Shown: in pieces, positions 596-56,639 of the stretch
Layout: each line of letters starts with the position of its first letter
How positions within the stretch are numbered: the first letter of the stretch is position 1
Assembly: GCF_029633865.1 (NCBI RefSeq)
Contig: NC_079211.1
Span: forward strand, 79,287,359-79,351,358
Source: Lampris incognitus
Lineage: Eukaryota > Chordata > Actinopteri > Lampriformes > Lampridae
DNA: 64,000 nucleotides
Reading direction: 5' to 3'
Translations under genes and position numbers: made by a program
Notes under the pieces: model-generated
Database searches by the model: none
What the model saw: only the letters and a program-made list of their open reading frames with translations
What the model was told of the DNA's origin: nothing

Positions 596-3500
596 GTCTC
601 TAATCTGCATATACTAGGCCTGTCACCCTGCTCCGCTCCCTGTCTTCATTCACTCTCGTATCCTGTGTTCACACCAAACGCGAAGCCGTTTGTTTTGAGC
701 GATGAGATGCCGTATAAAGTCAACGCAGAGATGCCAGTAGACGCGGCTTCGTGGATTCTGCATATTCGCGCTACTCGAAAACGTTCAGCTTGAGCGAGAC
801 ATTTGCATGACGCTGTGTCGCGAACACCTATCAGTGTTGAGATTCTCCTGGCGTCCTGTTGGCCAGAAGATGAAGGACAACCTGATTGTCGTGGGTTCGC
901 GTACTCGGTCCCGCAGCGAGTAACTCGAATAAAAACAAGTGATGCCACGGTCAAACTTGCGCACGTAAAGCGAGGCAGAAATGGGCTTGGCGTTTGGTGG
1001 CAACACGCCACTGGACTGAGAAAACGATAACGTCCCCCGAGAGGCCGTTTGTGACACAGCACACAGCATACACACACACTTAACGCTAGAACAACCAAGT
1101 CGGTCGTTTTAATGGTTCGGTATTTTCAAAGTTTAATAACTTTGTGGAAAAATAAAAGATGCAGCCCTGCCGCTCCCTGAGTATACACTACAACTGCATA
1201 TATTCACATTAAAACGAGTTTCAGATCAATCGCACAAAAACAAGTCGTGATAAGAGCTACCTAAAACCGCCATGAGCGGTCAGCAGGACCGTCTCGTAAT
1301 TTGCGCGTGATGGTGTGCGTCATGTCACTCTTTATGACATGTGTTGGTGGCGTCATTTCCTTCCTGAAGTTCTTGCTCTGTCCTAGAAATACACTAGCGC
1401 CCTCCAGTGGAGAGAAATAAGTCTAAACTTGATGGGTGATTATGTCCAACATGTGTGGTTACAGACGCCGCTACAGACGCGCCATGACTACCACCGAGGC
1501 GCTGCAGGATTTACAGGCGTTGGACAGCCGCCATTTTAAATTGTTTAAAAATAGTATTAAAGTTGTCAGCGTGTTAATGTTGGTGTCAGTTGTTTCATAA
1601 CAGACACACTAACATGTGTAATGCATTAATATCTCAGCTGGGTATTTATCTTGACACAATATAGAGTTTAAATCTGTTGCGATCAAAATGACCGCCCATG
1701 GTCGTTCTAATATTTTTTAATGTTCCGGTTGCTGTTTGGGACTGTTTCAATATTTATTTTCAGTTCTTTTCTTACATGTCACGTTTTTATAGGCCTTGTT
1801 ACGTTTGTTAGATTAGCAATATGTGTTTTCTGGTTTGTTTTTCAGGTAATATTTTCACTTTTTCCATTTTGTTATTCAAGTTCGACCATGTCTCTCTGAA
1901 GTTTAAACTGTTTGAAAATAGTATTATAGTTGTTAAAACGTTAATTTTGGTGTCAGTTAGTTTCATAACAGACATACTAACGTGTAATACATTAATATCT
2001 CAACCGAGTATTTATCTTGACACAATATAGAGTTTAAAAACTGGCGGTCATTTTGACCGCCCATGGTCATTTTAGGTAGGAGGGAAATCCTGGTCTTTCT
2101 AATGTTAAAGTACATTTTTAATAAAAACAACAACAACTGGCCTTCTCGACCATCGCTGCAGTAGTGTCTCTGCATCAGCCGTGGACAGGAAAGACCGAAT
2201 TTTAGCTGTTACGCAAGTGAAAAAAGGCAGTCTTGGTGATTTCTTTCATGCGCTTATCAAAGGAAAGGCTGGGATCAAACCTAACACCCAGATTTTTGGC
2301 TGCCACACTTTGTGAAACCACAGAGTTGTCGACTGTTATCGTTACTTGATCAAATTGGTGTCTGTGTCTAGCAGGGCCAATGACCAGCATCTCGGTCTTA
2401 TCCGAATTTAAAAACAGAAAGTTAAGTGACATCCAGTTTTTCACAGTAGCCAAGCAGGCCTCTAAGTTAGTGATTTGAGTATGTTCATCAGTCCTTATAG
2501 GCACATACAGCTGAGTATCATCAGCATAGCAATGGAAATTTATTCCATAACTGCGTATAATTTGGCCAAGAGGTGTAATGTAAAGAGAGAAAATAGAGGG
2601 CCAAGAACTGAGCCCTGAGGCAAACCATATTTAACCTCCGAGAATTTCGATGTAATATCACTATAGCAGACACAATGTGTTCTTCCAGATAAGTAGGACT
2701 TAAGCCAAGAGAGAGCTAAGCCAGAGACACCAAAATTACCATTTATTCTGTCTAATAGTATTATAACGATCACAGATGAAGAGACTCGGTAGCCCTTGGC
2801 TAACGGGTTGGACCCTTTAGTCGCCTGGTTAACGTTGTCGCCCGCAGTGTGGGCGATACGGGTTTGCGTCCTGGCTGTGGCGGCAGTTCCCGTGGCTGCC
2901 CCCCGAATTCGCTACATTGGTGTCAGAAGTGGGATGGTGAGATCGTGAAGGACCGTGAGGCCATCAGAAGCATTTCCTGAAGGAGGGAGGTAGTGTAACG
3001 TACATAAGTAGACACGTTAGCCCTTGGCTGACGGGTCGGACCCCTTAGTCGACTGGTTAACGTTGTCACCCGCGGTGCGGGAAACACGTGTTCGTGTCCC
3101 GGCTGTGACGGTCCAGCCAAGCTGCCCCCCGAATTCGCTGCATAGGTGTCAGAAGTGGGATTCGAGTGATTAACGTAGTCGGAATAGGACTCTGGTTCTA
3201 TTTTGTGGGTTTTCTTCTCTGAACTGGAGCCATGATTAAGAGGGACAGCTGGGGACATTCGTATTGCGCCGCTAGAGGTGAAATTCTTGGACCAGCGCAA
3301 GACGCATGAAAGCGAAAGCATTTGCCAAGAATGCTTTCATTAATCTAGAACAAAAGTCGGAGGTTCGAAGACGATCAGATACCGTCGTAGTTCCGACCAT
3401 AAACGATGGCGACTAGCGATCCGGCGGCGTTATACCCATGACCCGCCGGGCAGCGTCCGGGAAACCAAAGTCTTTGGGTTCCGGGGGGAGTATGATTGCA

Positions 3501-6500
3501 AAGCTGAAACTTAAAGGAATAGTGTACTTCGACTTGCAAGCATATGCTACTGGCAGGATCAACCAGGTTCGCATCCTGGCTGTGGCGATTCACGGGGACG
3601 CAAATCCCGAAGGAAGGGGGCAATGTAACGATAACCGATGAATAGGCTCGGTAGCCCTTGGCTAACGGGTTGGACCCTTTAGTTGACTGGTTAGTGTTGT
3701 CACCCGTGGTGCGGGAGCCATGGGTTCGTGCCCCGGCTGTGACGGTCCGGCCGGGGACGCCCCTCCCCAAAGAAGGGGGCAATGTAACGATCACAGATGA
3801 ATAGGCTCGGTAGCCCTTGGCTAACGGGTCGGACCCTTTAGTCGAGTGGTTAACGTTGCCGCTTGAGGTGCGGGAGCCCCAGGTTCGCGTCCTGGCTGTG
3901 GCGATTCGCGAGGACGTGAATCCCGAAGGAAGGGGGCAATGTAACGATCACGGACTAATAGGCTCGGTAGCCCTTGGCTAACGGGTCGGACCCTTTAGTC
4001 ACCTGGTTAATGTTGTCGCCCGTGGTGCAGGAGATACGGGTTCGCGTCCTGGCTGTGGTGGCGGTTCCCGTGGCTGCCCCCTGAATTTGCTACAGTATAC
4101 AGCGATTATTGGTGTCAAAGGCTGCACTGATATCCAGTAGTAGAAGCACAGAAGTGGAATCAGAGTCCGTAGCTAGTAAAAGATCAGTCACCACTCTGGT
4201 CAGAGTAGTTTCAGTGCTGTGTCATGCTTAAGGTTCCTACTGGTCAGTATATCCTGTAACATTTAAATTCCCCAAATATAAGGTAAAAGGTAACCCAAAT
4301 GTCAGATTCTCGTCTAATGTTTGTTTCCATCTTAAGCTTCTGTTGAGTGTCATTGACTGGCCTGGAAACAGGCGGTCAACCCATCTGTGTTCATTCAGAG
4401 TCATCTGTTTTCTCTCCTGCAGGAGAGAACCAACGTGTTCGATGAGTTCTCTGTGTCCAAGACTGGAATCCTGCTCTGCACGGTGAATACACACTCTGAT
4501 CTACACAATAACACATGTGTGTGGTGAATACACATCGTGTCAGGGCTTGAATACATCAGCAGTGGTAAATGTGTGTCAGCGGAGACACCTCACCTTAATT
4601 TCCACTTCAGCGGCGTTTAGCCTGGCACTGATGTGAATGCTCATTACTCTGTTGCAGTAGCGGCCTGTGGCCATAAATACTAGTGGGGCAGACACTGGCT
4701 GCAGCTCCTGAATCGCTAGCCACGCCCACTCTTGATATGGTTATTATAATAATTAAGTATATTAAGTACTTATATTAATTAAGTATAATAATTACTATAT
4801 TCGAGAATAGACGGTACCTGTATACAGACCAGCCAGCAGCCCACATAACGCCGCAGTAGCCAACACATTTCAAAGATGAACAATAGGCTATCCTTTAGCC
4901 CGAGTGTAAGCGACAAAAAGCTACCCACGATAAAGTAAAGCAATGTCTAAAAATAGATTACTCCAACTTTCATGATTATGAGAAGGACTTGACGGATGCA
5001 TTACGTCTAGCATGCTATCGAGTAGCTCGTTCTGGATACTTTTGGGCGGACCTTTGAAAACCGTCGCCTTTTCTAGGTGCTCCTGCACTGCAGTATCCAA
5101 CGACCAAACTAAATCCACAAGGCCACGGAAGATGCCAGGGTTATCGGTTCGATCTCGTCGTGTCCTCTAAGGGCTAGTTCAAATGCTCCACAGAGTTTTA
5201 TGCAGTCTATAAGCTTTGACAGAATGTGCTGGTTTTTGTCCACCTCCTTACTGTGCTTCCACACACTCACGTGGCAGCTCTCATCAAGCTGTGCTGCTAC
5301 GTTAGCTTGACCGAGCACGGCTAGTTTCATAGCACAGTGTACATGTGCTCTGCTTGACTCACGTTTCTTCTGAAAAGTGCTTCAAATCACTCAGCCCACA
5401 GGGTGTAGTGGTCTAAACATCGGCTTTGTGTCGATGCAGTTGCCCACTGGGGACCGGGGTTCGCGCCCCGGTCTCGTCAGATCCAAATATGTCCGGATTC
5501 GATGAAGCAGCAATAATTGGCAGCGCTGTCTTCGGGGAGGGGGCGGAGTCGGCTTGTGTTCGTCACATGAATGCGTCTCTATGTGTGTGGGGAAAAAGCA
5601 GTGGTTCGGCCTGGATTCGCCTTGTCACGGAAGTGGCGAGGCGTCTCCTTCCAGACTGCCGGCCGGAGAGATGCAGTTGGCGAACACATGCAGGATGAGG
5701 GTGGTGTTTGAACTAGAATAGGGAATGATTGGTAACTAAACTGGGAGAAAAAGGGACAAATCAGATATACATTTTTTTAAAAATCACTCAGCCCTGTGTT
5801 AGTCCATATATCCCCTTGTCCTGACCCTGCTACGGATGAGTGGAACAATCGGCTCGGGGAACAGAATACTGTATTCCGTGTTGAGCAGCCACATAGCCAT
5901 GTTTTCTTTTCATACCATGTTCATGAAAATGTCCTGTTGTAGGTTTCCCCTTTGTCCTTTGTTCGCTGAGTAATGTCAATGTCTGGTCTGTCAGGGCCAA
6001 GCTACTTAATTACTCTCTTGTCTTGTAATTGTAGTCGTTCAAATCGTTTTTTTTTAAATAAACTCTACACTGTTAGACACAGCAGGTGCAACAATGCTGG
6101 TCGCCATTTCGGCAGTAGTCTAAAAGTGCGGACTAACTCAAGAAAACGGTAGAAGGCTGCAGAGTACGGAAGTAGGGCAGACTCATTTCTGCCCCAATGA
6201 GCCTCTGTTGGCGCTTATTGCAGTTCCCCTCTTTGACCACAAGGCGCTATAATGAATCTGCCAGCGAAAGCGGGGCAACGCACTAAACTGAGACCGAATC
6301 ACTGAAATGACGGTTTTGACTTTCAAAGATCAAAAGTTGTTGAATAATTTGATTCATTTATTGCACAAAAGTAGGTAATATTTATAGCAAAGTAATTATG
6401 ATGTATTAACGAGAAAAAATAGTTTATGAGGAGTAACTATGTTTTTAGGTGGATGAATTTTTTTCTTAGTGGGGCACTGCCCCACCTGGCCATATGAACA

Positions 6501-11458: not shown

Positions 11459-14400
11459 GTACTGGTGTCGCTGTGCTGTGGTATGCAAGGAGGTGGTGTA
11501 GTACATATGAGTAGTACTGGTGTAGCTGTGCTGTGGTATGCAGAGAGGTGGTGTAGTAGATATGAGTAGTACTGGTGTAGCTGTGCTGTGGTATGCAGGG
11601 AGGTGGTGTAGTAGATATGAGTAGTACTGGCGTCGCTGTGCTGTGGTATGCAGAGAGGTGGTGTAGTAGATATGCGTAGTGCTGGTGTAGCTGTGCTGTG
11701 GTATGTGGGGAGGTGGTATAGTAGATATGAGTAGTGCTGGTGTAGCTGTGCTGTGGTATGCAGGGAGGTGGTGTAGTAGATATGAGTAGTGCTGGTGTAG
11801 CTGTGCTGTGGTATGCAGGGAGGTGGTGTAGTACAGATATGAGTAGTACTGGCGTAGCTGTGCTGTGGTATGCAGGGAGGTGGTGTAGTATAGATATGAG
11901 TAGTACTGGTGTAGCTGTGCTGTGGTATGCAGGGACGTGGTGTAGTATAGATATGAGTAGTGCTGGCGTAGCTGTGCTGTGGTATGCAGGGAGGTGGTGT
12001 AGTATAGATATGAGTAGTACTGGTGTAGCTGTGCTGTGGTATGCAGAGAGGTGGTGTAGTAGATATGAGTAGTACTGGTGTAGCTGTGCTGTGGTATGCA
12101 GGGAGGTGGTGTAGTAGATATGAGTAGTACTGGCGTCGCTGTGCTGTGGTATGCAGAGAGGTGGTGTAGTAGATATGCGTAGTGCTGGTGTAGCTGTGCT
12201 GTGGTATGTGGGGAGGTGGTATAGTAGATATGAGTAGTGCTGGTGTAGCTGTGCTGTGGTATGCAGGGAGGTGGTGTAGTAGATATGAGTAGTGCTGGTG
12301 TAGCTGTGCTGTGGTATGCAGGGAGGTGGTGTAGTATAGATATGAGTAGTACTGGTGTAACTGTGCTGTGGTATGCAGGGAGGTGGTGTAGTATAGATAT
12401 GAGTAGTTCTGGCGTAGCTGTGCTGTGGTATGCAGGGAGGTGGTGTAGTATAGATATGAGTAGTACTGGTGTAGCTGTGCTGAGGTATGCAGGGAGGTGG
12501 TGTAGTATAGATATGAGTAGTACTGGTGTAGCTGTGCTGTGGTATGCAGGGAGGTGGTGTAGTATAGATATTAGTAGTACTGGTGTAGCTGTGCTGTGGT
12601 ATGCAGAGAGGTGGTGTAGTAGATATGAGTTGTACTGGTGTAGCTGTGCTGTGGTATGCCGGGAGGTGGTGTAGTAGATATGAGTAGTACTGGCGTCGCT
12701 GTGCTGTGGTATGCAGAGAAGTGGTGTAGTAGATATGCGTAGTGCTGGTGTAGCTGCTGTGGTATGCAGGGAGGTGGTGTAGTAGATATGAGTAGTACTG
12801 GTGTAGCTGTGCTGTGGTATGCAGGGAGGTGGTGTAGTAGATATGAGTAGTACTGGTGTAGCTGTGCTGTGGTATGCAGGGAGGTGGTGTAGTAGATATG
12901 AGTAGTACTGGTGTAGCTGTGCTGTGGTATGCAGGGAGGTGGTGAAGTAGATATGAGTAGTGCTGGTGTAGCTGCGCTGTGGTATGCAGGGAGGTGGTGT
13001 AGTATAGATATGAGTAGTACTGGTGTAGCTGTGCTGTGGTATGCAGGGAGGTGGTGTAGTATAGATATGAGTAGTACTGGTGTAGCTGTGCTGTGGTATG
13101 CAGGGAGGTGGTGTAGTACAGATATGAGTAGTACTGGTGTAGCTGTGCTGTGGTATGCAGGGAGGTGGTGTAGTATAGATATGAGTAGTACTGGTGTAGC
13201 TGTGCTGTCGTATGCAGGGAGGTGGTGTAGTATAGATATGAGTAGTACTGGTGTAGCTGTGCTGTGGTATGCAGGTAGGTGGTGTAGTATAGATATGAGA
13301 AGTACTGGTGTAGCTGTGCTGTGGTATGCAGGGAGGTGGTGTAGTACAGATATGAGTAGTACTGGTGTAGCTGTGCTGTGGTATGCAGGGAGGTGGTGTA
13401 GTATAGATATGAGTAGTACTGGTGTAGCTGTGCTGTGGTTTGCAGGGAGGTGGTGTAGTATAGATATGAGTAGTGCTGGCGTAGCTGTGCTGTGGTATGC
13501 AGGGAGGTGGTGTAGTATAGATATGAGTAGTACTGGTGTAGCTGTGCTGTGGTATGCAGGGAGGTGGTGTAGTATAGATATGAGTAGTACTGGTGTAGCT
13601 GTGCTGTGGTATGCAGGGAGGTGGTGTAGTATAGATATGAGTAGTACTGGTGTAGCTGTGCTGTGGTATGCATAGAGATGGTGTAGTATGGATATGCGTA
13701 GTACTCGCGTAGCTGTGCTGTGGTATGCAGGGAGGTGGTGTAGTAGATATGAGTAATACTGGTGTAGCTGTGCTGTGGTATGCAGGGAGGTGGTGTAGTA
13801 TAGATATGCGTAGTGCTGGTGTAGCTGCTGTGGTATGCAGGGAGGTGGTGTAGTAGATATGAGTAGTACTGGTGTAGCTGTGCTGTGGTATGCAGGGAGG
13901 TGGTGTAGTAGATATGAGTAGTACTGGTGTAGCTGTGCTGTGGTATGCAGGGAGGTGGTGTAGTAGATATGAGTAGTACTGGTGTAGCTGTGCTGTGGTA
14001 TGCAGGGAGGTGGTGTAGTAGATATGAGTAGTACTGGTGTAGCTGCGCTGTGGTATGCAGGGAGGTGGTGTAGTATAGATATGAGTAGTACTGGTGTAGC
14101 TGTGCTGTGGTATGCAGGGAGGTGGTGTAGTATAGATATGAGTAGTACTGGTGTAGCTGTGCTGTGGTATGCAGGGAGGTGGTGTAGTACTGGTGTAGCT
14201 GTGCTGTGGTATGCAGGGAGGTGGTGTAGTATAGATATGAGTAGTACTGGTGTAGCTGTGCTGTGGTATGCAGGGAGGTGGTGTAGTATAGATATGATTA
14301 GTACTGGTGTAGCTGTGCTGTGGTATGCAGGGAGGTGGTGTAGTATAGATATGAGTAGTACTGGTGTACCTGTGCTGTGGTATGCAGGGAGGTGGTGTAG

Positions 14401-17400
14401 TACAGATATGAGTAGTACTGGTGTAGCTGTGCTGTGGTATGCAGGGAGGTGGTGTAATATAGATATGAGTAGTACTGGTGTAGCTGTGCTGTGGTTTGCA
14501 GGGAGGTGGTGTAGTATAGATATGCGTAGTGCTGGCATAGCTGTGCTGTGGTATGCAGGGAGGTGGTGTAGTAGATATGAGTAGTGCTGGTGTAGCTGTG
14601 CTGTGGTATGCAGGGAGGTGGTGTAGTATAGATATGAGTAGTTCTGGCGTAGCTGTGCTGTGGTATGCAGGGGGGTGGTGTAGTATAGATATGCATAGTA
14701 CTGGCGTAGCTGTGCTGTGGTATGCAGGGAGGTGGTGTAGTATAGATATGAGTAGTACTGGTGTAGCTGTGCTGTGGTATGCAGGGAGGTGGTGTAGTAT
14801 AGATATGAGTAGTACTGGTGTAGCTGTGCTGTGGTATGCAGGGAGGTGGTGTAGTAGATATGAGTAGTACTGGTGTAGCTGTGCTGTGGTATGCAGGGAG
14901 GTGGTGTAGTAGATATGAGTAGTACTGGTGTAGCTGCGCTGTGGTATGCAGGGAGGTGGTGTAGTATAGATATGCGTAGTACTGGCATAGCTGTGCTGTG
15001 GTATGCAGGGAGGTGGTGTAGTAGATATGAGTAGTACTGGCGTAGCTGTGCTGTGGTTTGCAGGGAGGTGGTGTTGTATAGATATGCGTAGTACTGGCGT
15101 AGCTGTGCTGTGGTATGCATGGAGGTGGTGTAGTAGATATGAGTAGTACTTATGTAGCTGTGCTGTGGTATGCAGGGAGGTGGTGTAGTATAGATATGAG
15201 TAGTACTGGTGTAGCTGTGCTGTGGTATGCAGGGAGGTGGTGTAGTACAGATATGAGTAGTACTGGTGTACCTGTGCTGTGGTATGCAGGGAGGTGGTGT
15301 AGTATAGATATGAGTAGTCCTGGTGTAGCTGTGCTGTGGTATGCAGGGAGGTGGTGTAGTAGATATGAGTAGTACTGGCGTAGCTGTGCTGTGGTTTGCA
15401 GGGAGGTGGTGTAGTATAGATATGCGTAGTACTGGCGTAGCTGTGCTGTGGTATGCAGGGAGGTGGTGTAGTAGATATGAGTAGTACTGGTGTAGCTGTT
15501 CTGTGGTATGCAGGGAGGTGGTGTAGTAGATATGAGTAGTGCTCGTGTAGCTGTGCTGTGGTATGCAGGGAGGTGGTGTAGTAGATATGCGTAGTTCTGT
15601 TGTAGCTGTGCTGTGGTATGCAGGGAGGTGGTGTAGTAGATATGAGTAGTACTGGTGTGGCTGTGCTGTGGTATGCAGGGAGGTGGTGTAGTAGATATGA
15701 GTAGTACTGGTGTAGCTGTGCTGTGGTATGCAGAGAGGTGGTGTTGTAGATATGAGTAGTGCTGGTGTAGCTGTGCTGTGGTATGCAGGGAGGTGGTGTA
15801 GTAGATATGAGTAGTACTTATGTAGCTGTGCTGTGGTATGCAGGGAGGTGGTGTAGTATAGATATGAGTAGTACTGGTGTAGCTGTGCTGTGGTATGCAG
15901 GGAGGTGGTGTAGTACAGATATGAGTAGTACTGGTGTACCTGTGCTGTGGTATGCAGGGAGGTGGTGTAGTATAGATATGAGTAGTCCTGGTGTAGCTGT
16001 GCTGTGGTATGCAGGGAGGTGGTGTAGTAGATATGAGTAGTACTGGCGTAGCTGTGCTGTGGTTTGCAGGGAGGTGGTGTAGTATAGATATGCGTAGTAC
16101 TGGCGTAGCTGTGCTGTGGTATGCAGGGAGGTGGTGTAGTAGATATGAGTAGTACTGGTGTAGCTGTTCTGTGGTATGCAGGGAGGTGGTGTAGTAGATA
16201 TGAGTAGTGCTCGTGTAGCTGTGCTTTGGTATGCAGGGAGGTGGTGTAGTAGATATGCGTAGTTCTGTTGTAGCTGTGCTGTGGTATGCAGGGAGGTGGT
16301 GTAGTAGATATGAGTAGTACTGGTGTGGCTGTGCTGTGGTATGCAGGGAGGTGGTGTAGTAGATATGAGTAGTACTGGTGTAGCTGTGCTGTGGTATGCA
16401 GAGAGGTGGTGTTGTAGATATGAGTAGTGCTGGTGTAGCTGTGCTGTGGTATGCAGGGAGGTGGTGTAGTAGATATGAGTAGTACTGGCGTAGCTGTGCT
16501 GTGGTATGCAGGGAGGTGGTGTAGTAGATATGAGTAGTGCTGGTGTAGCTGTGCTGTGGTATGCAGGGAGGTGGTGTAGTATAGATATGAGTAGTACTGG
16601 TGTAGCTGTGCTGTGGTATGCAGGGAGGTGGTGTAGTATAGATATGAGTAGTACTGGTGTAGCTGTGCTGTGGTATGCAGGGAGGTGGTGTAGTAGATAT
16701 GCGTAGTGCTGTTGTAGCTGTGCTGTGGTATGCAGGGAGGTGGTGTAGTATAGATATGCGTAGTGCTGGCGTAGCTGTGCTGTGGTATGCAGGGAGGTGG
16801 TGTAGTAGATATGCGTAGTACTGGCGTAGCTGTGCTGTGGTATGCAGGGAGGTGGTGTAGTAGATATGAGTAGTACTGGTGTAGCTGTGCTGTGGTATGC
16901 AGGGAGGTCGTGTAGTATAGATATGCGTAGTGCTGGTGTAGCTGTGCTGTGGTATGCAGGGAGGTGGTGTAGTAGATATGAGTAGTACTGGTGTAGCTGT
17001 GCTGTGGTATGCAGGGAGGTGGTGTAGTAGATATGAGTAGTACTGGTGTAGCTGTGCTGTGGTATGCAGAGAGGTGGTGTAGTAGATATGAGTAGTGCTG
17101 GTGTAGCTGTGCTGTGGTATGCAGGGAGGTGGTGTAGTAGATATGAGTAGTACTGGCGTAGCTGTGCTGTGGTATGCAGGGAGGTGGTGTAGTAGATATG
17201 AGTTGTTCTGGTGTAGTTGTGTTGTGGTATGCAGGGAGGTGGTGTAGTATAGACATGAGTAGTACTGGTGTAGCTGTGCTGTGGTATGCAGGGAGGTGGT
17301 GTAGCATAGATATGAGTAGTACTGGTGTAGCTGTGCTGTGGTATGCAGGGAGGTGGTGTAGTATAGATATGAGTAGTACTGGTGTAGCTGTGCTGTGGTT

Positions 17401-20400
17401 TGCAGGGAGGTGGTTTTGTAGATATGAGTAGTGCTGGCGTAGCTGTGCTATGGTATGCAGGGAGGTGGTGTAGATATGAGTAGTGCTGGTATAGCTTTGC
17501 TGTGGTATGAAGAGAGGTGGTGTAGTAGATATGAGTAGTGCTGGTGTAGCTGTGCTGTGGTATGCAGGGAGGTGGTATAGTAGATATGAGTAGTACTGGT
17601 GTAGCTGTGCTGTGGTATGCAGGGAGGTGGTGTAGTATAGATATGCGTAGTACTGGTGTAGCTGTGCTGTGGTATGCAGGGAGGTGGTGTAGTATAGATA
17701 TGAGTAGTACTGGTGTAGCTGTCCTGTGGTATGCAGGGAGGTGGTGTAGTAGATATGAGTAGTACTGGTGTAGCTGTGCTGTGGTATGCAGGGAGGTGGT
17801 GTAGTATAGATATGCGTAGTACTGGCATAGCTGTGCTGTGGTATGCAGGGAGGTGGTGTAGTAGATATGAGTAGTACTGGCGTAGCTGTGCTGTGGTTTG
17901 CAGGGAGGTGGTGTTGTATAGATATGCGTAGTACTGGCGTAGCTGTGCTGTGGTATGCATGGAGGTGGTGTAGTAGATATGAGTAGTACTTATGTAGCTG
18001 TGCTGTGGTATGCAGGGAGGTGGTGTAGTATAGATATGAGTAGTACTGGTGTAGCTGTGCTGTGGTATGCAGGGAGGTGGTGTAGTACAGATATGAGTAG
18101 TACTGGTGTACCTGTGCTGTGGTATGCAGGGAGGTGGTGTAGTATAGATATGAGTAGTCCTGGTGTAGCTGTGCTGTGGTATGCAGGGAGGTGGTGTAGT
18201 AGATATGAGTAGTACTGGCGTAGCTGTGCTGTGGTTTGCAGGGAGGTGGTGTAGTATAGATATGCGTAGTACTGGCGTAGCTGTGCTGTGGTATGCAGGG
18301 AGGTGGTGTAGTAGATATGAGTAGTACTGGTGTAGCTGTTCTGTGGTATGCAGGGAGGTGGTGTAGTAGATATGAGTAGTGCTCGTGTAGCTGTGCTTTG
18401 GTATGCAGGGAGGTGGTGTAGTAGATATGCGTAGTTCTGTTGTAGCTGTGCTGTGGTATGCAGGGAGGTGGTGTAGTAGATATGAGTAGTACTGGTGTGG
18501 CTGTGCTGTGGTATGCAGGGAGGTGGTGTAGTAGATATGAGTAGTACTGGTGTAGCTGTGTTGTGGTATGCAGAGAGGTGGTGTTGTAGATATGAGTAGT
18601 GCTGGTGTAGCTGTGCTGTGGTATGCAGGGAGGTGGTGTAGTAGATATGAGTAGTACTGGCGTAGCTGTGCTGTGGTATGCAGGGAGGTGGTGTAGTAGA
18701 TATGAGTAGTGCTGGTGTAGCTGTGCTGTGGTATGCAGGGAGGTGGTGTAGTATAGATATGAGTAGTACTGGTGTAGCTGTGCTGTGGTATGCAGGGAGG
18801 TGGTGTAGCATAGATATGAGTAGTACTGGTGTAGCTGTGCTGTGGTATGCAGGGAGGTGGTGTAGTATAGATATGAGTAGTACTGGTGTAGCTGTGCTGT
18901 GGTTTGCAGGGAGGTGGTGTAGTATAGATATGAGTAGTCCTGGTGTAGCTGTGCTGTGGTATGCAGGGAGGTGGTGTAGTAGATATGAGTAGTACTGGCG
19001 TAGCTGTGCTGTGGTTTGCAGGGAGGTGGTGTAGTATAGATATGCGTAGTACTGGCGTAGCTGTGCTGTGGTATGCAGGGAGGTGGTGTAGTAGATATGA
19101 GTAGTACTGGTGTAGCTGTTCTGTGGTATGCAGGGAGGTGGTGTAGTAGATATGAGTAGTGCTCGTGTAGCTGTGCTTTGGTATGCAGGGAGGTGGTGTA
19201 GTAGATATGCGTAGTTCTGTTGTAGCTGTGCTGTGGTATGCAGGGAGGTGGTGTAGTAGATATGAGTAGTACTGTTGTGGCTGTGCTGTGGTATGCAGGG
19301 AGGTGGTGTAGTAGATATGAGTAGTACTGGTGTAGCTGTGCTGTGGTATGCAGAGAGGTGGTGTTGTAGATATGAGTAGTGCTGGTGTAGCTGTGCTGTG
19401 GTATGCAGGGAGGTGGTGTAGTAGATATGAGTAGTACTGGCGTAGCTGTGCTGTGGTATGCAGGGAGGTGGTGTAGTAGATATGAGTAGTGCTGGTGTAG
19501 CTGTGCTGTGGTATGCAGGGAGGTGGTGTAGTATAGATATGAGTAGTACTGGTGTAGCTGTGCTGTGGTATGCAGGGAGGTGGTGTAGCATAGATATGAG
19601 TAGTACTGGTGTAGCTGTGCTGTGGTATGCAGGGAGGTGGTGTAGTATAGATATGAGTAGTACTGGCGTAGCTGTGCTGTGGTATGCAGGGAGGTGGTAT
19701 AGTAGATATGAGTAGTACTGGTGTAGCTGTGCTGTGGTATGCAGGGAGGTGGTATAGTAGATATGAGTAGTACTGGTGTAGCTGTGCTGTGGTATGCAGG
19801 GAGGTGGTGTAGATATGAGTAGTACTGGTGTAGCTGTGCTGTGGTATGCAGGGAGGTGGTGTAGTATATATATGAGTAGTACTGGTGTAGCTCTGCTGTG
19901 GTATGCAGGGACGTGGTGTAGTAGATATGAGTAGTACTGGCGTAGCTGTGCTGTGGTATGCAGGGAGGTGGTGTAGATATGAGTAGTACTGGTGTAGCTG
20001 TGCTGTCGTATGCAGGGAGGTGGTGTAGTAGATATGAGTAGTACTGGTGTAGCTGTGCTGTGGTATGCAGGGACGTGGTGTAGTAGATATGAGTAGTACT
20101 GGCGTAGCTGTGCTGTGGTATGCAGGGAGGTGGTGTAGATATGAGTAGTACTGGTGTAGCTGTGCTGTGGTATGCAGGGACGTGGTGTAGTAGATATGAG
20201 TAGTACTGGCGTAGCTGTGCTGTGGTATGCAGGGAGGTGGTGTAGTAGATATGAGTAGTACTGGTGTAGCTGTGCTGTGGTATGCAGGGAGGTGGTGTAG
20301 TATAGATATGCGTAGTACTGGCATAGCTGTGCTGTGGTATGCAGGGAGGTGGTGTAGTAGATATGAGTAGTACTGGCGTAGCTGTGCTGTGGTTTGCAGG

Positions 20401-23400
20401 GAGGTGGTGTTGTATAGATATGCGTAGTACTGGCGTAGCTGTGCTGTGGTATGCATGGAGGTGGTGTAGTAGATATGAGTAGTACTTATGTAGCTGTGCT
20501 GTGGTATGCAGGGAGGTGGTGTAGTATAGATATGAGTAGTACTGGTGTAGCTGTGCTGTGGTATGCAGGGAGGTGGTGTAGTACAGATATGAGTAGTACT
20601 GGTGTACCTGTGCTGTGGTATGCAGGGAGGTGGTGTAGTATAGATATGAGTAGTCCTGGTGTAGCTGTGCTGTGGTATGCAGGGAGGTGGTGTAGTAGAT
20701 ATGAGTAGTACTGGCGTAGCTGTGCTGTGGTTTGCAGGGAGGTGGTGTAGTATAGATATGCGTAGTACTGGCGTAGCTGTGCTGTGGTATGCAGGGAGGT
20801 GGTGTAGTAGATATGAGTAGTACTGGTGTAGCTGTTCTGTGGTATGCAGGGAGGTGGTGTAGTAGATATGAGTAGTGCTCGTGTAGCTGTGCTTTGGTAT
20901 GCAGGGAGGTGGTGTAGTAGATATGCGTAGTTCTGTTGTAGCTGTGCTGTGGTATGCAGGGAGGTGGTGTAGTAGATATGAGTAGTACTGGTGTGGCTGT
21001 GCTGTGGTATGCAGGGAGGTGGTGTAGTAGATATGAGTAGTACTGGTGTAGCTGTGTTGTGGTATGCAGAGAGGTGGTGTTGTAGATATGAGTAGTGCTG
21101 GTGTAGCTGTGCTGTGGTATGCAGGGAGGTGGTGTAGTAAATATGAGTAGTACTGGCGTAGCTGTGCTGTGGTATGCAGGGAGGTGGTGTAGTAGATATG
21201 AGTAGTGCTGGTGTAGCTGTGCTGTGGTATGCAGGGAGGTGGTGTAGTATAGATATGAGTAGTACTGGTGTAGCTGTGCTGTGGTATGCAGGGAGGTGGT
21301 GTAGCATAGATATGAGTAGTACTGGTGTAGCTGTGCTGTGGTATGCAGGGAGGTGGTGTAGTATAGATATGAGTAGTACTGGTGTAGCTGTGCTGTGGTT
21401 TGCAGGGAGGTGGTGTAGTATAGATATGAGTAGTCCTGGTGTAGCTGTGCTGTGGTATGCAGGGAGGTGGTGTAGTAGATATGAGTAGTACTGGCGTAGC
21501 TGTGCTGTGGTTTGCAGGGAGGTGGTGTAGTATAGATATGCGTAGTACTGGCGTAGCTGTGCTGTGGTATGCAGGGAGGTGGTGTAGTAGATATGAGTAG
21601 TACTGGTGTAGCTGTTCTGTGGTATGCAGGGAGGTGGTGTAGTAGATATGAGTAGTGCTCGTGTAGCTGTGCTTTGGTATGCAGGGAGGTGGTGTAGTAG
21701 ATATGCGTAGTTCTGTTGTAGCCGTGCTGTGGTATGCAGGGAGGTGGTGTAGTAGATATGAGTAGTACTGTTGTGGCTGTGCTGTGGTATGCAGGGAGGT
21801 GGTGTAGTAGATATGAGTAGTACTGGTGTAGCTGTGCTGTGGTATGCAGAGAGGTGGTGTTGTAGATATGAGTAGTGCTGGTGTAGCTGTGCTGTGGTAT
21901 GCAGGGAGGTGGTGTAGTAGATATGAGTAGTACTGGCGTAGCTGTGCTGTGGTATGCAGGGAGGTGGTGTAGTAGATATGAGTAGTGCTGGTGTAGCTGT
22001 GCTGTGGTATGCAGGGAGGTGGTGTAGTATAGATATGAGTAGTACTGGTGTAGCTGTGCTGTGGTATGCAGGGAGGTGGTGTAGCATAGATATGAGTAGT
22101 ACTGGTGTAGCTGTGCTGTGGTATGCAGGGAGGTGGTGTAGTATAGATATGAGTAGTACTGGCGTAGCTGTGCTGTGGTATGCAGGGAGGTGGTATAGTA
22201 GATATGAGTAGTACTGGTGTAGCTGTGCTGTGGTATGCAGGGAGGTGGTGTAGATATGAGTAGTACTGGTGTAGCTGTGCTGTGGTATGCAGGGAGGTGG
22301 TGTAGTATATATATGAGTAGTACTGGTGTAGCTCTGCTGTGGTATGCAGGGACGTGGTGTAGTAGATATGAGTAGTACTGGCGTAGCTGTGCTGTGGTAT
22401 GCAGGGAGGTGGTGTAGATATGAGTAGTACTGGTGTAGCTGTGCTGTGGTATGCAGAGACGTGGTGTAGTAGATATGAGTAGTACTGGTGTAGCTGTGCT
22501 GTGGTATGCAGGGACGTGGTGTAGTAGATATGAGTAGTACTGGCGTAGCTGTGCTGTGGTATGCAGGGAGGTGGTGTAGATATGAGTAGTACTGGTGTAG
22601 CTGTGCTGTGGTATGCAGGGAGGTGGTGTAGTAGATATGAGTAGTACTGGTGTAGCTGTGCTGTGGTATGCAGAGAGGTGGTGTTGTAGATATGAGTAGT
22701 GCTGGTGTAGCTGTGCTGTGGTATGCAGGGAGGTGGTGTAGTAGATATGAGTAGTACTGGCGTAGCTGTGCTGTGGTATGCAGGGAGGTGGTGTAGTAGA
22801 TATGAGTAGTGCTGGTGTAGCTGTGCTGTGGTATGCAGGGAGGTGGTGTAGTATAGATATGAGTAGTACTGGTGTAGCTGTGCTGTGGTATGCAGGGAGG
22901 TGGTGTAGCATAGATATGAGTAGTACTGGTGTAGCTGTGCTGTGGTATGCAGGGAGGTGGTGTAGTATAGATATGAGTAGTACTGGCGTAGCTGTGCTGT
23001 GGTATGCAGGGAGGTGGTATAGTAGATATGAGTAGTACTGGTGTAGCTGTGCTGTGGTATGCAGGGAGGTGGTGTAGATATGAGTAGTACTGGTGTAGCT
23101 GTGCTGTGGTATGCAGGGAGGTGGTGTAGTATATATATGAGTAGTACTGGTGTAGCTCTGCTGTGGTATGCAGGGACGTGGTGTAGTAGATATGAGTAGT
23201 ACTGGCGTAGCTGTGCTGTGGTATGCAGGGACGTGGTGTAGTAGATATGAGTAGTACTGGCGTAGCTGTGCTGTGGTATGCAGGGAGGTGGTGTAGATAT
23301 GAGTAGTACTGGTGTAGCTGTGCTGTGGTATGCAGGGACGTGGTGTAGTAGATATGAGTAGTACTGGTGTAGCTGTGCTGTGGTATGCAGGGACGTGGTG

Positions 23401-23543
23401 TAGTAGATATGAGTAGTACTGGCGTAGCTGTGCTGTGGTATGCAGGGAGGTGGTGTAGATATGAGTAGTACTGGTGTAGCTGTGCTGTGGTATGCAGGGA
23501 CGTGGTGTAGTAGATATGAGTAGTACTGGCGTAGCTGTGCTGG
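11459..23543. repeat. 12-kb minisatellite array (52/55/57-bp units)
   Basis: Roughly 215 head-to-tail units, each holding GTGTAGCTGTGCTGTGGTAT and GCAGGGAGGTGGTGTAGTA. Three length classes occur: GTAGTATAGATATGAG (57 bp), GTAGTAGATATGAG (55 bp) and GTGTAGATATGAG (52 bp). The 57-bp unit is 19 codons and keeps frame; 55 and 52 both shift by one. No minus-strand frame of the unit has a stop, so antisense frames of thousands of codons arise and change phase from unit to unit. I regard these as repeat artefacts, not genes: they are pure unit repeats and have no upstream or domain support. The array starts 535 bp after the ddx31 stop. Confidence 0.96.
17770..22760. repeat. Higher-order duplication within the minisatellite (2 x ~2,496 bp)
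   Basis: Landmark variants recur at a constant offset of 2,496 bp: the ATGCATGGAGG unit at 17955/20451, the TAGCATAG unit at 18807/21303, the CTTTGGTATGC unit at 18397/20893. The copies differ by only a few substitutions (for example GTAGATATG at 18635 against GTAAATATG at 21131). Shorter duplications (668 bp at 15115/15783, 780 bp at 18678/19458) are nested inside or before it. Confidence 0.88.
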
Positions 23544-38400: not shown

Positions 38401-41400
38401 CATTAATATGCCTTCCATTTCTCGGCCTAAATGCGGTGCTGCGTTACAAACACGGCAGTAACATGTAAAGTGACATGTAAACATGTAGATTAACACGTAA
38501 AGTAACATGTACACGCAAAATAACATGCAACATGTAAACATGTAAAGTACCATGAAAATTAACATGCAAAGTAACATGTAAACGCATAAAATAACATGCA
38601 CAGTAACATTTAAACATGTAGTGTAACATAAAAAGTAACAAGTAACGTGTAAACGTCAAATAACATGTAGAGTAACGTGTAAACATGTAAAGTAACATGA
38701 AAATTAACACGTAAAGTAACATGTAAACGTGGAAAATAACATGCAAAGTAACATGTAAACATGTAAAGAACATGAAAATTAACATGTAAACGTGGAAAAT
38801 TAGCATGCAAAGTAACATGTAAACATGTAAAGAACATGAAAATTAACATGTAAAGTAATGTAGTGGGAAATGCCTGGGGATGTACTTGGAATGTTGCACT
38901 GGGCTCGTGCAGCTAGAGGACCAATCACAGGTTAGCTCGCGCTGTCACAGACGCAACTATATTAGACACCGCGGGAGAGACAAAGCGCCAGAACTGTTTA
39001 GTAACCATATCGTAGACTGTCACCTTAGCGTGGGATAGAGCAGGGAAACCTAGCGTATCCTGGGCTAGATAGTAGATACGGTGGCTAGCAGTGGTAGTGT
39101 TAGCAGCAGACTGCCTCGGTACCTGTAGCTAGCTGACTACCCCCGAGAGCTTCCCCAGAGAGACTGAGATAGACATTCACCCGGTCACACCGGAGCCAGA
39201 GTACAGAGAGAGAGAGAGACACGCACCCCGGAGAGCAGCCATCCATCTCCCGCCCCGCCTAGAGCTCAGCCGCCCTGTTCCATCACCAGCCCTGGTCCCA
39301 AGGTGAGCTTGCTAACCCATTAGCACACGGCTAACTAGCAGGCTAGCCCTAGCATTGGCGCAGCTATCTAGCTAACGGTGGTGAAGCCCGGTTTGTCGCA
39401 CCTAAAAGTCCCCGCCTCCATCCATAGTTATCCGGGCTATAGAAAAACCGCGACAAGTGGTGTCAGAAGTGGGATAAAAGGTTGGGATTCGCCATAATCT
39501 CAACACCGGAGGATCCTGCCCCGGTCACATGGCGGCATAATTCAGCCTGCACACTGTGAGCTAACCCAGCTAGCAAGAAGCCATTTTGTGAAACACTGTA
39601 ATTTCTTCAGTAGTCACGTAAATCAGTGGAAAAATAAAAATGTCACAGGACAAAGAAAATGTAAAAGAACAGTCTGAGTTGAGTCTGGATGGTGCTGGTG
39701 TGGGGACAGAAGACCCCGGAGAGCACGCCTGGATGAAGCTCCTCCTGGCGCAGATGGAAACCATGAACCAGACCCAGGTTCAGATGCAACGCCAGATGGA
39801 AAACATGGAACGCCAGACCCAGGTTAAGATGCAACGCCAGATAGAGATGCAGATGGAGGCCCTCACAGCGCGTATCGATGGACTAGCGGAAGCGGTGGCT
39901 AAGCGATCTCGTCCTCCCATTCAGCGCACCGATTGGGCCCGTCATCGTTCAGATATCCAAGGTGAGCCTCCCGGTTTGTCGCCCATCGCTCAAGTAGTGA
40001 AGCAAGGGGTTTCTCCTAGTAGCCCTCAAAGCGATAGTGGTGTAGGGTCGGCAGGGGCTGTGCTCGGAGAACGAACTAGCCGAACGGTGCAAGACATGAG
40101 CCTACTCTCGCAGTTCACCCCGGCCCGGGAGAACCCAGGGGCCAGACAGCGAGACGGCGCTGATCACCTGTTGCCAGCAGCTATGGCCGCAGTGGCTAAC
40201 TTGAGCGACCGGCGCAACGAGGAGACGCCAGCCAGGCCGAGCAGCAAAGCGGCCCCAGCAGCCCTGCGCTATACAGGAAATGGACCCAGTGAGCCCGCAC
40301 CACTTACCAGCACTCCGATCGGTCATGGTGGAAAAAATGGAGCGACTGCAGTACCACCCCCCGACGGGATGCAGGGTGGCCAAATGTCCCTGGACAGCAA
40401 CGGCGGCCGAAACCTGCTGGATGACATCGTTGGAGGGCAGGCAGGTTCCTCTAGAGGTCAACAGAGCCAGACAGGAGACCTTCAAAGTCGGAGCGGCAAC
40501 CGAAGCTCACAAGGTCCCGACCGAGGACACGAAAATGACATCAAGCTCCTCGCCACTTTTGATGGTAAGGGCGACAAGGATAGTTTCGTTGGACCATTCG
40601 AACGGATGGCGAGAAAGAGGGGCTGGACCGACGAGACCTGTTTGGACGCCTTGTATCTCCGACTGAGGGACAACGCCATGTCTTTTGTCATCGCGCAGCC
40701 GGCTCCGATAAAAGATGACTACCACGCGCTCATCACCCAGTTACGCCGCCGCTACGGTAAAGAGCTGCCTGAGGGAACTGCGCGCCGTAAACTCAGCGAG
40801 GTTAAGCAGGCCAGAGAGATGACCCTCTATGAGTTTGGCGAGGAAGTGAGGAGACTTGTCACACTGGCATACCCGCAGGTTGGTGTTACACTGCAGGAGG
40901 CCTACGCTGCAGAAGCCTTTCTGCGCGGGCTGAAGAACCAAAACATCGCGTATGAAGTCCTAGGGGCAGAACCCAAAACACTAGCTGGAGCAATCAGGAA
41001 GGTTGAGGCACGCGAGTATGACTTTAAAGCGACGCTGGGGCGAGAGGTTGAAGGAAAAGGGAGAATCCGGCGAGTAGCATTGGAAGACGAGCGGCGTCGC
41101 GATAGCTCTCCAAGTCCTCCGCCGGTAGGAGACAGCATGAGCACCCCCGAGCTCAAGACCCTGGCCAGTGGCATCGACAACATTAACAAGGTGCTCTTAA
41201 ATATCGAGCGGTACATGGCCAAAGAACAAGTAGGAGTGGAACGGGGAGGGACGCTTGAGCGGGCTACCTACGCGCACACGGGGCAACGCGCGCAGCGGTC
41301 CCCGAGCCCAAGTTCCCGCAGCAAAGGGACCTGTTACCAGTGTGGAGAGGAGGGCCATTTCAAGCGAGAGTGTAACTCACGGTCACCAAGCCCGAGGGCT

Positions 41401-44400
41401 CCGAGGAAGGTCAGCGAGCAGCCATCAGTCAATCTCGGCCGAGCCTCGGGGAATGGACCCAGTCTCGTCATTCCCATCACCGTGAACAGCCTGCAGGTGA
41501 AGTGCATCGTTGACACAGGGGCCGAAGCCACGGTGATGTCCCGAGACACATTCCAACGATTAAATCTGGCCGAGCGTCGGAATCGCCATTCTGCGTAACG
41601 CTGAAGAGGGTAAAGACATGGCTGAAACCCCGAAGTATAGGGTGACCATCCGCTTGGGCCCCAAGACCATCGAATGGGATGTGTTCGTCGCGCCCATCCG
41701 CGACCCCTTCCTCCTGGGCCTAGATCTCATGTTGGCCGCTCATGTCACTGTATCCGGGGGAGGCCAGGTCTACGTCGAAGGGGAGCCAGTGGCCACAGTT
41801 ATCGTGGGTACGTCCGTGGGGGAGTACGCCGTCTCTCGCGTACTGCTGCAGGACTCTTTGACACTATCAGCGGAGAGCGAGCAGGACGTCTGGGGTGTGG
41901 TGGAAAGCCCCAAGGCAGGTATCTCCGCCGTCCTGGAGCCTGCTGGCCTCACCGAGGGAGTTTCATCTGGCAGTGTGTTGGTCAACGTTGCCCCACACGT
42001 CCCTGTGCGACTGTGTAACCTGATGCCGAAAGAAGTTAGGCTGAAGAAAGGAGCCTGCCTCGGCGTGCTAGTGGAGGCGGAAGAGGAGCTTCAGGCCCCC
42101 CAAGAGGACGACATGAGCCGAAAAAATGAACCAGCCACCGTCCGACGGATGGAGTCGTCACCAACTATGGGTCTGCCCGACCATCTGTCGTCCCTGTATG
42201 AGTCCGCCAGTGAAGGGTTGGATGAGGATCAGCGGAGGGCCCTGCAACAACTCCTGATTGAACACCAGGGCGTGTTCGCGGCCAGTGACGCGGACCTGGG
42301 GCGCTTCGATGCGGTCCAGCACCGAATCAACACTAGCGAAGGCCAACCTGTCCGACAACCGGCTCGGCGCACGCCCCTGGACTTTCAACAAGAAGAGGAG
42401 CGGCACCTGAAGAGCATGCTAGAGGCCGGAGTGATTACACCATCCACTTCGGAATGGGGCTCTCCAGTGGTGTTAGTTAGAAAGAAGGACGGAGGTGTGC
42501 GGTGGTGCATAGATTATAGAAGACTCAACGACCTGACTCTCAAAGATGCATATCCACTGCCGCGGATCGAAGAGTGTCTGGACACCCTCGAGGGGGCCAC
42601 TGTATTCTCGACTTTAGATATGCAAAGTGGATATTGGCAGATTGGAGTGCACCCGGATGATCGTGGAAAGACAGCCTTTATAACACGCTATGGGCTGTTC
42701 GAGTACACCCGAATGCCCTTCGGGCTGTGCAATGCGCCCGGCACATTTCAACGTGCGATGGAGGTGGTGTTGAGAGGGTTACAGTGGAGACACCTGCTTG
42801 TATACCTCGACGACATCATTGTGCTGGGGCGTGGAGTCGAAGAGGGTCTGCAGAGCCTGGGGAAGGTCTTGGAGCGCATCCGGGCGTACGGTCTCAAACT
42901 CAAGCCATCTAAATGCCACCTGCTGCGGAGGGAGGTCCTGTTCTTGGGGCATGTCGTGAGCGGAGACGGAGTCAGCCCGAACCCGGAGCTTGTGAAGTCT
43001 GTGAACGACTGGAGGACCCCAAGAAACCTCACTGAGCTCCAGGCTTTTCTCGGCTTGTGTAACTACTACAGACGGTTTGTGCGAGGATTTGCCCATCTGT
43101 GCAGCCCCCTCTACGAACTTCAGAAAAAGGGGGAGGGGTTTAAGTGGGGCGACACACAACAAGTAGCCTTCGAGGAGTTAAAGGCAAGACTCACCACGGC
43201 ACCTCTTCTGGCATACCCCACTCGAGATGGACTGTTTCTGCTTGACACTGACGCGTCCAACACATGCGTCGGAGCTGTCCTGTCACAGATGCAAGCAGGA
43301 GAAGAAAAGGTCATAGCCTACGCCAGTGCACATCTGCAAAGCACACAGCAGCGATACTGCGTCACACGCCGAGAGCTTCTGGCTGTAGTCCGCTTCACAC
43401 GGCAGTTTCGCCACTACCTGTTGGGCCGGTCGTTCATCATCCGGACGGACCATAACAGTTTGATTTGGCTGTTTCGGTTCAAGAGCCCAGAAGGCCAGCT
43501 GGCGAGGTGGATCGAGGAGCTGAGCCAGTACGACTTCAAAATCGAACACCGGCCAGGAGTCAAGCACAGCAACGCGGACGCGCTGTCCAGGTCACCCAAA
43601 CCCGCCTGTGACTGCTATCATGCTGGGGAGAGTCTGGACTCGCTGCCTTGTGGAGGTTGCTCCTACTGTCACCGTGAACACCACCATTGGGCAAGTTTCA
43701 GCGACGATGTGGATGATGTGGTCCCGCTAGCGATCCGTCGAACTGACTCGGAAGAGAACACCTCCGGAGCGGCAGAAGAGGGCGTTCCACCATCGGCTCC
43801 AGGAGGAGAGGCAGGAGGCCTAACGATGTCACAACCTGTCAATGAACATCAGAATGGTGCTGAAGAGAGTGAACCACCTGCTATCAACTGGTTAGCCCAG
43901 CATTCGACCAACGAGCTAGCGGAGCGCCAGAGGGGAGACGCCGTGCTAGCGAAGTTGCACCAGTGGAAGGATGAGGGGAAGCTACCGTCACAGGAGGAGA
44001 TGGCGCTGGAAGGACCTGCTGCACGGAAGTACTGGTTGGTCTGGACGCAAGTAGAAAGGCGAAATGGAGTCCTGTACTACCGCTGGGACGAAGGAGCTGA
44101 CACGCCATCCATCCTCTGTCTCATTGTTCCAACAGCGCTCCAAGAAGAGGTCCTACGTTTGTGTCACTGCGCCCTGCTGTCCGGTCACTTGGGCCGTGAG
44201 AAGACCTACCATCGAGTTCGCAGAGAGTTCTACTGGGTTGGTCTGACTGACAGTGTGAACCAGTTCGTCCGACGCTGTCCTGAATGTCAGGCGTGTAAAT
44301 CCTCTGGAAGAACAGGCAGAGCTGCCTTGCAGATGTACCAGGCCGGCGCTCCTATGGACAGGGTTCACATCGACGTGGTTGGACCGCTCCCAGTATCCAA

Positions 44401-56125: not shown

Positions 56126-56583
56126 GAAGACAGACGCGCGGTGTCAAGTTAAGTAACCACGTTAGAACAGACACAAGTCCCTGTGTGCGGGGTCGATAGC
56201 TTCCTAACTGCTTCCGGAGTATGACAGCCTGGCTAGTCGATTACCTATCACCTAGATCCCGTAACATCATCCTTCTCAATAGAAAGTGCAAACGCAGCAG
56301 CGTCACATTCAGTTCTTAGAATACAAACCCGTCCTGACATTGGAGCGGACTCTATGCTCATACGATTCACGATAACAGGGTCTGGTGGCTTTAAGAGAAA
56401 GCGTTTCCGGGTTGGCAGGGGGAGCTACGGCGATGATTGGTTGGAGCAGCGCCATGTTGCTGGGGCTGTTGCTTTGTAGAGAAAATAAAAGACACACGCG
56501 TGTCCGTCTCTACTTCCCTGCAATTTCCACATTGGTGACCGCGACGTCCGCCTCGGCTCGCCCAGACAGAAGCGCAAAATACT
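56126..56583 (+). mobile_element. LTR fragment with primer-binding site
   Basis: TGCAATTTCCACA at 56519-56531 is followed by TTGGTGACCGCGACGTCC, similar to the gypsy-2 primer-binding site. AATAAA at 56477 fits an LTR R region. The left LTR boundary is not resolved. Confidence 0.5.
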
Positions 56584-56639
56584 GTAACGTGCATGGATAA
56601 GTAGACACGTTGGTCCTTGACTAACGGGTCGGACCCTTT
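56584..56639 (+). repeat. TRIM-like LTR fragment (same family as 2994)
   Basis: TGTAACGTGCATGGATAAGT, AGACACGTTGGTCC and CTAACGGGTCGGACCC match the LTR unit at 2994-3060, then it breaks off. Confidence 0.75.

Follow-up and report, generated by a model that had tools for sequence, protein, structure and literature searches.

Terminal-repeat retrotransposons in miniature (TRIMs) with small-RNA promoters are poorly understood. The closest described kind is Helenus (TRIMp3), reported by Kojima (2024, PMC10886601) from zebrafish and other Cypriniformes, catfish, milkfish, sturgeon, paddlefish and coelacanth. As characterized in the text of that paper, Helenus elements are gene-less, with a tRNA-like sequence bearing A and B boxes in their short long terminal repeats (LTRs), a primer-binding site (PBS) and a polypurine tract (PPT). 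They make 4-bp target-site duplications (TSDs) in animals, use tRNA-Leu among their vertebrate primers and number thousands of copies in zebrafish (including LTR-11_DR); tandem arrays are mentioned in one sentence. The plant Cassandra elements also hold a small-RNA sequence of RNA polymerase III (pol III) type in their LTRs and form tandem arrays for which template switching was proposed, although their sequence is 5S rRNA, with terminators in the 5S, rather than tRNA-like (text of PMC7215508). Here we describe an insertion of 1333 bp at 2762–4094 of a 64,000-nucleotide stretch of Lampris incognitus DNA (GCF_029633865.1, NC_079211.1, positions 79,287,359 to 79,351,358; hereafter the window). 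It is very probably one mosaic copy of a gene-less fish TRIM with tRNA-like sequence in its LTRs.

This kind of element is already known from Helenus. An earlier note on this DNA had held that a tRNA-like LTR element would be new in a fish, a claim overtaken by the 2024 description (PMC10886601). The likeness is one of layout and description, not of alignment to LTR-11_DR or other named families. The window copy has A and B boxes in its LTRs (five of five units), a PBS with PPTs and a 4-bp TSD, and the Helenus feature absent from some of its units is the PBS. What is novel is the PBS-less, PPT-ended form and the capture of rRNA. Unlike Helenus as described, the family includes PBS-less PPT-ended units flanked by TSDs, part of a primer tRNA (at a single locus, L037) and 18S rRNA (in the window copy); the main text of the Helenus paper (PMC10886601) contains none of the terms "18S", "template switch" and "without PBS". 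In the open-access literature, nothing fitting 18S capture by LTR elements or PBS-less elements was found by title and abstract, and five LTR and PBS words of the family do not occur in the open-access paper texts examined.

Related products of reverse transcription have been described elsewhere. In compound LTR elements of the Triticeae (Sabot and Schulman 2007, text of PMC1950507), abnormal template switching fuses two retrotransposons into a complex daughter inserted as one piece, whereas here 18S rRNA and primer tRNA are involved too. LINE-1 chimeras likewise arise when reverse transcriptase joins its template to cellular RNAs, including 5S and 28S rRNA and tRNA, but these are target-primed, while ours is an LTR-type element with a 4-bp TSD and 18S rRNA (text of PMC13174262). 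The Lampris copies seem to record both the primer that was used (48 nt of tRNA-Leu) and a stray cellular RNA (18S to its mature 5' end), with strand transfer as an apparent way of making tandem repeats. They also bear on how rRNA fragments and tRNA-like loci are annotated in the genomes of fishes.

The window insertion comprises five LTR-like units (U1 to U5) and one partial unit, arranged as in Table 1. The 4-bp target duplications, PBS, PPTs and five LTR-like units proposed in the earlier note are all present, and to these we add the second PBS, the sixth, partial unit, the 18S rRNA and a Gypsy element with the same PBS. GCT(A/G)CA ends close three units (at 2916, 3142 and 4094), and PPT-LTR junctions start at 3610, 3769 and 3926. 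PBS matches with at most three mismatches occur three times in the window, a number reached by 0 of 100 shuffles. The outer LTRs, U1 and U5, are 87.7% identical (12.3% difference). The only reading frame of at least 150 aa in the element is antisense and runs through the repeats.

Table 1. Coordinates of the TRIM insertion, a related fragment and the candidate helper element in the window
Feature	Position	Strand	Remarks
Target-site duplication GTAT, left copy	2758–2761		
Unit U1, 5' LTR, type 1	2762–2916	+	155 bp; A box 2818, B box 2861
First PBS, TGGTGTCAGAAGTGGGAT	2918–2935	+	tRNA-Leu-type, 18/18
Short internal region	2936–2993	+	PPT at its end
Unit U2, complete LTR, type 2 (other subfamily)	2994–3142	+	A box 3046, B box 3089
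Second PBS	3144–3161	+	17/18
A-box fragment of tRNA-like unit	3162–3180	+	first four bases TCGA
18S rRNA piece, sense	3181–3520	+	
18S rRNA 5' end, antisense	3522–3568	-	
T-arm part of unit, tail and PPT	3563–3623	+	PPT 3609–3623; no LTR end, no PBS
Unit U3, type 1	3624–3782	+	PPT replaces LTR end and PBS; A box 3680, B box 3723
Unit U4, type 1	3783–3939	+	PPT-ended; A box 3839, B box 3882
Unit U5, closing 3' LTR	3940–4094	+	end GCTACA; A box 3996, B box 4039
Target-site duplication GTAT, right copy	4095–4098		
Intact-looking Gypsy, candidate helper	38859–46476	+	TSD GTAA
PBS of candidate helper Gypsy	39458–39475	+	identical to TRIM PBS (18/18)
Type-2 LTR fragment, same TRIM family	56583–56644	+	62 bp

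The whole 1333 bp lies inside one target duplication, because removing the insert and one GTAT rejoins the flanks in an unbroken reverse-strand frame (...DISAAFDT...) across the pre-insertion site. We take this frame, from its motifs, to be a LINE reverse transcriptase; in Pfam its left piece matches RVT_1 at E 0.01, below the cut-off, and its 41-aa right piece has no match. The element appears to be seated in a decayed LINE on the reverse strand, at 2300–2761 and 4095–4500.

Within one tRNA-like unit lie 388 bp of 18S rRNA in both orientations (3181–3568). An A-box fragment stands upstream and a T-arm downstream, with the 18S standing in for the anticodon part of the unit. The sense piece matches a teleost-like 18S reference at 326 of 340 bases (14 differences, 4.1%), and the stretch scores 261 bits against the Rfam eukaryotic 18S model. 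The antisense piece nearly abuts it, starting one base further on; it matches bases 2–31 of that reference exactly and then, after a 19-base gap, 14 of 16 bases. Rfam gives this piece 26.8 bits over model positions 1–51, below gathering. Its end coincides within one base with the mature 18S 5' end, at a CCAGGT (3563–3568) that it shares with the T-arm part. Read against U4, about 18 bases of the unit are absent at the insert rather than duplicated.

Among the places examined, the 18S junction is confined to this copy. A 126-base query across the downstream 18S junction matched in full at the window locus only, among 40 places scored of 343 candidates; at three further places the match ran 10 bases longer than at the remainder, an extension that in L050 belongs to the unit itself. 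None of five 18S words occurs in the 38 other family loci. The only TTTT runs in the element, at 3201 and 3210, fall in the 18S part, and a pol III transcript would therefore be expected to stop there. The 18S-bearing copy would thus have arisen during reverse transcription and be a dead end.

Relatives of the element are common across the 1.48-Gb genome. A query of LTR plus PBS gave 3547 first-look candidates, of which 40 were scored (best non-self identity 91%), and an internal-region query gave 2146, again with 40 scored; no near-identical relative of the window copy was among the copies scored. Simple copies are 347–430 bp long and consist of an LTR (~150 bp), one spacer base, PBS, PPT and a second LTR. 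Eight of these, chosen from 21 loci, have 41–122 bp between the LTRs, with PBS and PPT present and no coding capacity, which is the layout of a TRIM. TRIMs are expected to be shorter than 1000 bp, and the window copy exceeds that length because it is a mosaic. The genome search thus bears out the earlier note's TRIM with tRNA-like promoter sequence in its LTRs, and the LTR-PBS-PPT-LTR copies with 4-bp duplications are part of what it had asked of such a search. An ordinary tRNA SINE or satellite without LTR-type replication, which that note had named as the refuting outcome, would account for tRNA-like A and B boxes in tandem units and is highly improbable given genome copies with a PBS, a PPT, TG..CA ends, paired LTRs and 4-bp duplications. 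LTR and PBS words searched in viral contigs, and one LTR word in genome contigs, gave no result.

Among the 28 outer pairs from 39 loci, 9 have exact 4-bp TSDs, all of them RTAY; when the flanks were paired by shuffling, 2000 trials averaged 2.7 such matches and reached 9 at most. In the internal-query set, exact TSDs occur at 6 of 30 loci, with no control run, and one of the six (L063) has an irregular left edge. Over all sets, the majority of exact duplications are RTAY.

The two LTR types combine within copies. Among copies found with U1, a biased query, a type-1 PBS unit is followed by a type-2 unit 14 times and by a type-1 unit 8 times (two of them double calls), and 7 further unit pairs are of other or untyped combinations. 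Of 30 internal-query loci, 16 lacked a type for one LTR or both; the other 14 comprise ten 2-2 pairs, two weakly 1-1, one 1-2 (the query's own place) and one weakly 2-1. We considered 5' and 3' LTRs as systematically different lineages and rejected this, the internal-query loci being mostly 2-2. Since that query gave mostly same-type LTR pairs, mixed-type copies look like recombinants.

Further signs of template switching come from L037, a copy of 446 bp that is flanked by GTAT and holds an inverted unit. Beyond its PBS, another 30 bases continue the reverse complement of tRNA-Leu, 46 of 48 bases matching in all, and Rfam finds a T-arm hairpin there only through sub-threshold matches to tmRNA and other families. 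This half tRNA-Leu, at L037:1055-1125, is probably copied primer, and copied primer tRNA would be a useful marker in other LTR families. At U2 in the window, the TCGA after the PBS fits both the next four bases of tRNA-Leu (reverse complement) and an A-box fragment; among 57 PBSs behind an LTR end, the following bases are GGTG 23 times and TCGA twice. A loose search with a 25-base word, allowing at most 6 mismatches, placed A-box cores on each of the two strands at 17 of 39 loci; neighbouring insertions may explain some of these.

In the window, the partial unit, U3 and U4 all end in a PPT, without LTR end or PBS, and this form recurs elsewhere. At the other places scored with the 126-base query, the junction of T-arm, tail, PPT and following unit mostly matches at 90–97%. 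Of 27 loci with this PPT junction, 7 have an exact TSD pair and 20 have none; exact matches number 7 of 32 pairs, compared with 1 of 224 at seven displaced offsets. Five of the seven TSD-flanked copies contain no PBS (309, 310, 309, 470 and 750 bp). The same tail stands at the junction in all 27 loci, as expected from the query, but the tails of window unit U3, which differs from its neighbours, and of the first unit of L089 depart from it, so more than one deletion exists.

Three of the PPT-junction copies (L050, L052 and L102) have two units and L089 has three. The U3 parts of their LTRs are 96–98% identical within L089, 91% in L052, 82% in L050 and 78% in L102, compared with 84.6% between copies, and both U3 parts of L052 have the same private variant. 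Reverse transcription would be expected to leave the U3 parts of one copy alike, and this is thus seen in some copies, not all. L102:854-1162, a two-unit PBS-less copy with TSD ATAG, runs from type 2 to type 1, the opposite of most mixed copies.

A tentative reading, possible rather than probable, makes these PPT-ended units a parasite of the TRIM. A lineage would have lost its LTR end, PBS and most of its internal region through a shared deletion, and would depend for its copying on strong-stop DNA that tRNA-Leu primes on TRIM RNAs with a PBS, which themselves use Gypsy enzymes. Repeated R-to-R strand transfers would yield (U3-R-tail-PPT)n-U3-R-U5; the left end would be set by the outermost PPT, where plus-strand synthesis begins. 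Were this true, the units would form a third-order parasite that replicates by a shortcut of its own and generates new tandem repeats; a real PBS-less lineage would mean that losing the priming site need not keep an LTR element from spreading.

Taken as a whole, the data are best explained, we consider with good confidence, by a TRIM of the Helenus/TRIMp3 kind whose window mosaic was built by template switching before a single integration. Pol III would transcribe the TRIM from the A and B boxes in its LTRs, a Gypsy such as the one at 38859–46476 would provide capsid, reverse transcriptase and integrase in trans, and tRNA-Leu would prime reverse transcription. For the window copy, reverse transcriptase would have switched templates several times within one particle, joining type-1 and type-2 TRIM RNAs with 18S rRNA. 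Repeated returns to the R region (iterative R-to-R transfer) would have piled up the PPT-ended units, and Gypsy integrase would have inserted the completed mosaic cDNA once. The earlier note had suggested repeated recombination or template switching; this is supported by the 18S sequence within a unit, by L037 with its inverted unit and its run of tRNA-Leu, and by the single outer TSD.

Several observations count against this explanation, beginning with the tRNA-like sequence. Structural tRNA likeness is weak: the Rfam tRNA model has one sub-threshold match, in U4 (13.9 bits, gathering 29), and the other stretches tried gave no hit at E<=10. Compared with tRNAs, the 70-nt family block is not strongly like tRNA-Val (28 of 1000 shuffles equal it), the tRNA that Kojima aligned with fish Helenus (PMC10886601). 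The boxes are barely more conserved than the rest of the LTR (A 0.90 and B 0.87 vs 0.85). Moreover, Rfam is the one independent source behind the 18S and tRNA comparisons.

A rival account draws on the same observations: the tRNA-like sequence would be a coincidence or decayed relic, and the family driven by RNA polymerase II like ordinary TRIMs. We regard this as unlikely. The sub-threshold structure score, the near-background box conservation and the absence of A58 of the B box from all five units favour it. Against it, the A and B words have the same spacing, 43 nt, in five of five units (which are homologous and so not independent), and a scan of the element found 6 A+B pairs, a count reached by 0 of 500 shuffles, although 148 of 500 had at least one pair. 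For three of these six pairs the scan listed a different A word from that of the unit: U1 and U5 have an upstream A word of equal score, and another listed A word, at 3520, is in the 18S part. The family block also exceeds 1000 of 1000 shuffles for human tRNA-Gly and 997 of 1000 for Asp; shuffles doing as well numbered 8 for Glu, 180 for Lys, 277 for His and 181 for Leu, of 1000. Taken singly against 7 tRNAs, the units exceeded all 300 shuffles for 0 (U1), 1 (U2), 2 (U3), 4 (U4) and 1 (U5) of them. A TTTT pol III terminator is absent from the 8 simple copies, unlike Cassandra, and from the window copy outside the 18S insert, which also speaks against a pol II family.

The earlier note's A and B words stand in every LTR, but its perfect T-arm does not: by hand reading the T-stem is 5/5 in U4 only, 4/5 in three units and 3/5 in one. 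ARAGORN (bacterial code) found no tRNA in the window or in 39 family loci. By its boxes, the LTR holds a tRNA-like sequence that reads as a promoter, and it is not a tRNA.

The age of the family also weighs on the preferred explanation of template switching before integration. The two LTRs of one copy resemble each other little more than they resemble those of other copies: in six main-subfamily copies of ~420 bp, pairs are 87–94% identical, compared with 89.2% on average for LTRs from different copies, and another comparison gave 83.1 within and 81.7 between. LTR pairs of the 8 simple copies are 77–85% identical, and the pair of the mixed-type copy L055 82%. The family is old in this genome, and age and recombination are therefore not cleanly separable. 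In addition, the TSD count observed was reached at least once among the 2000 shuffles of the pairing.

Alternatively, the mosaic could have been made after integration, a normal TRIM being reshaped by unequal crossing-over and gene conversion, with the 18S added by later repair or insertion. This seems to us distinctly improbable. Recombination may enlarge tandem arrays of small TRIMs (Kalendar 2020, text of PMC7215508), and 17 of 39 family loci have at least three unit starts, a count in which one start may be listed twice. However, the inverted unit and tRNA-Leu stretch inside TSD-flanked L037 are not products of unequal crossing-over, and the unit bases at the 18S insert are missing, not duplicated. 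The 4.1% difference of the sense 18S piece is under half the 12.3% LTR difference, which fits entry at or after integration and is hence not decisive.

A plausible helper, judged from its sequence, lies ~36 kb from the TRIM copy: the Gypsy at 38859–46476. Its LTRs (38859–39455 and 45872–46476) are 98.2% identical, and it has gag, protease, RT (reverse transcriptase), RNase H and integrase matches. Gypsy and TRIM both have TG..CA ends and a 4-bp TSD, and their PPT/LTR junctions read GGAGGGGGGCAG/TGTA in the Gypsy and GGAGGGGGGTAG/TGTA in the TRIM copies. Of three Gypsy-like elements in the window, this one shares the TRIM PBS; the second has a different PBS, and so does the third, as far as can be judged without its LTR pair. 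Two things about this Gypsy count against the explanation as a whole: outside the PBS, the G-rich PPT and the ends of the LTRs it shows no likeness to the TRIM internal region or LTR, and its single TSD (GTAA) is not RTAY.

Other repeats surround these elements. A AACATGTAAA-type minisatellite lies on both sides of the Gypsy, at 38457–38858 and 46476–46887. The second Gypsy-like element (47410–51808, minus strand) has 178-bp LTRs that are 100% identical, PBS TGGTGACCCCGACGTGA and a coding part in three frames. At 57892–63616, overlapping frames of 1084 aa (no Pfam match) and 828 aa (RT and RNase H) follow the TRIM LTR fragment at 56583, which lies upstream of them. A 12-kb tandem array at 11459–23542 consists of ~217 copies of a 55-bp unit and holds long stop-free frames, the longest on the minus strand.

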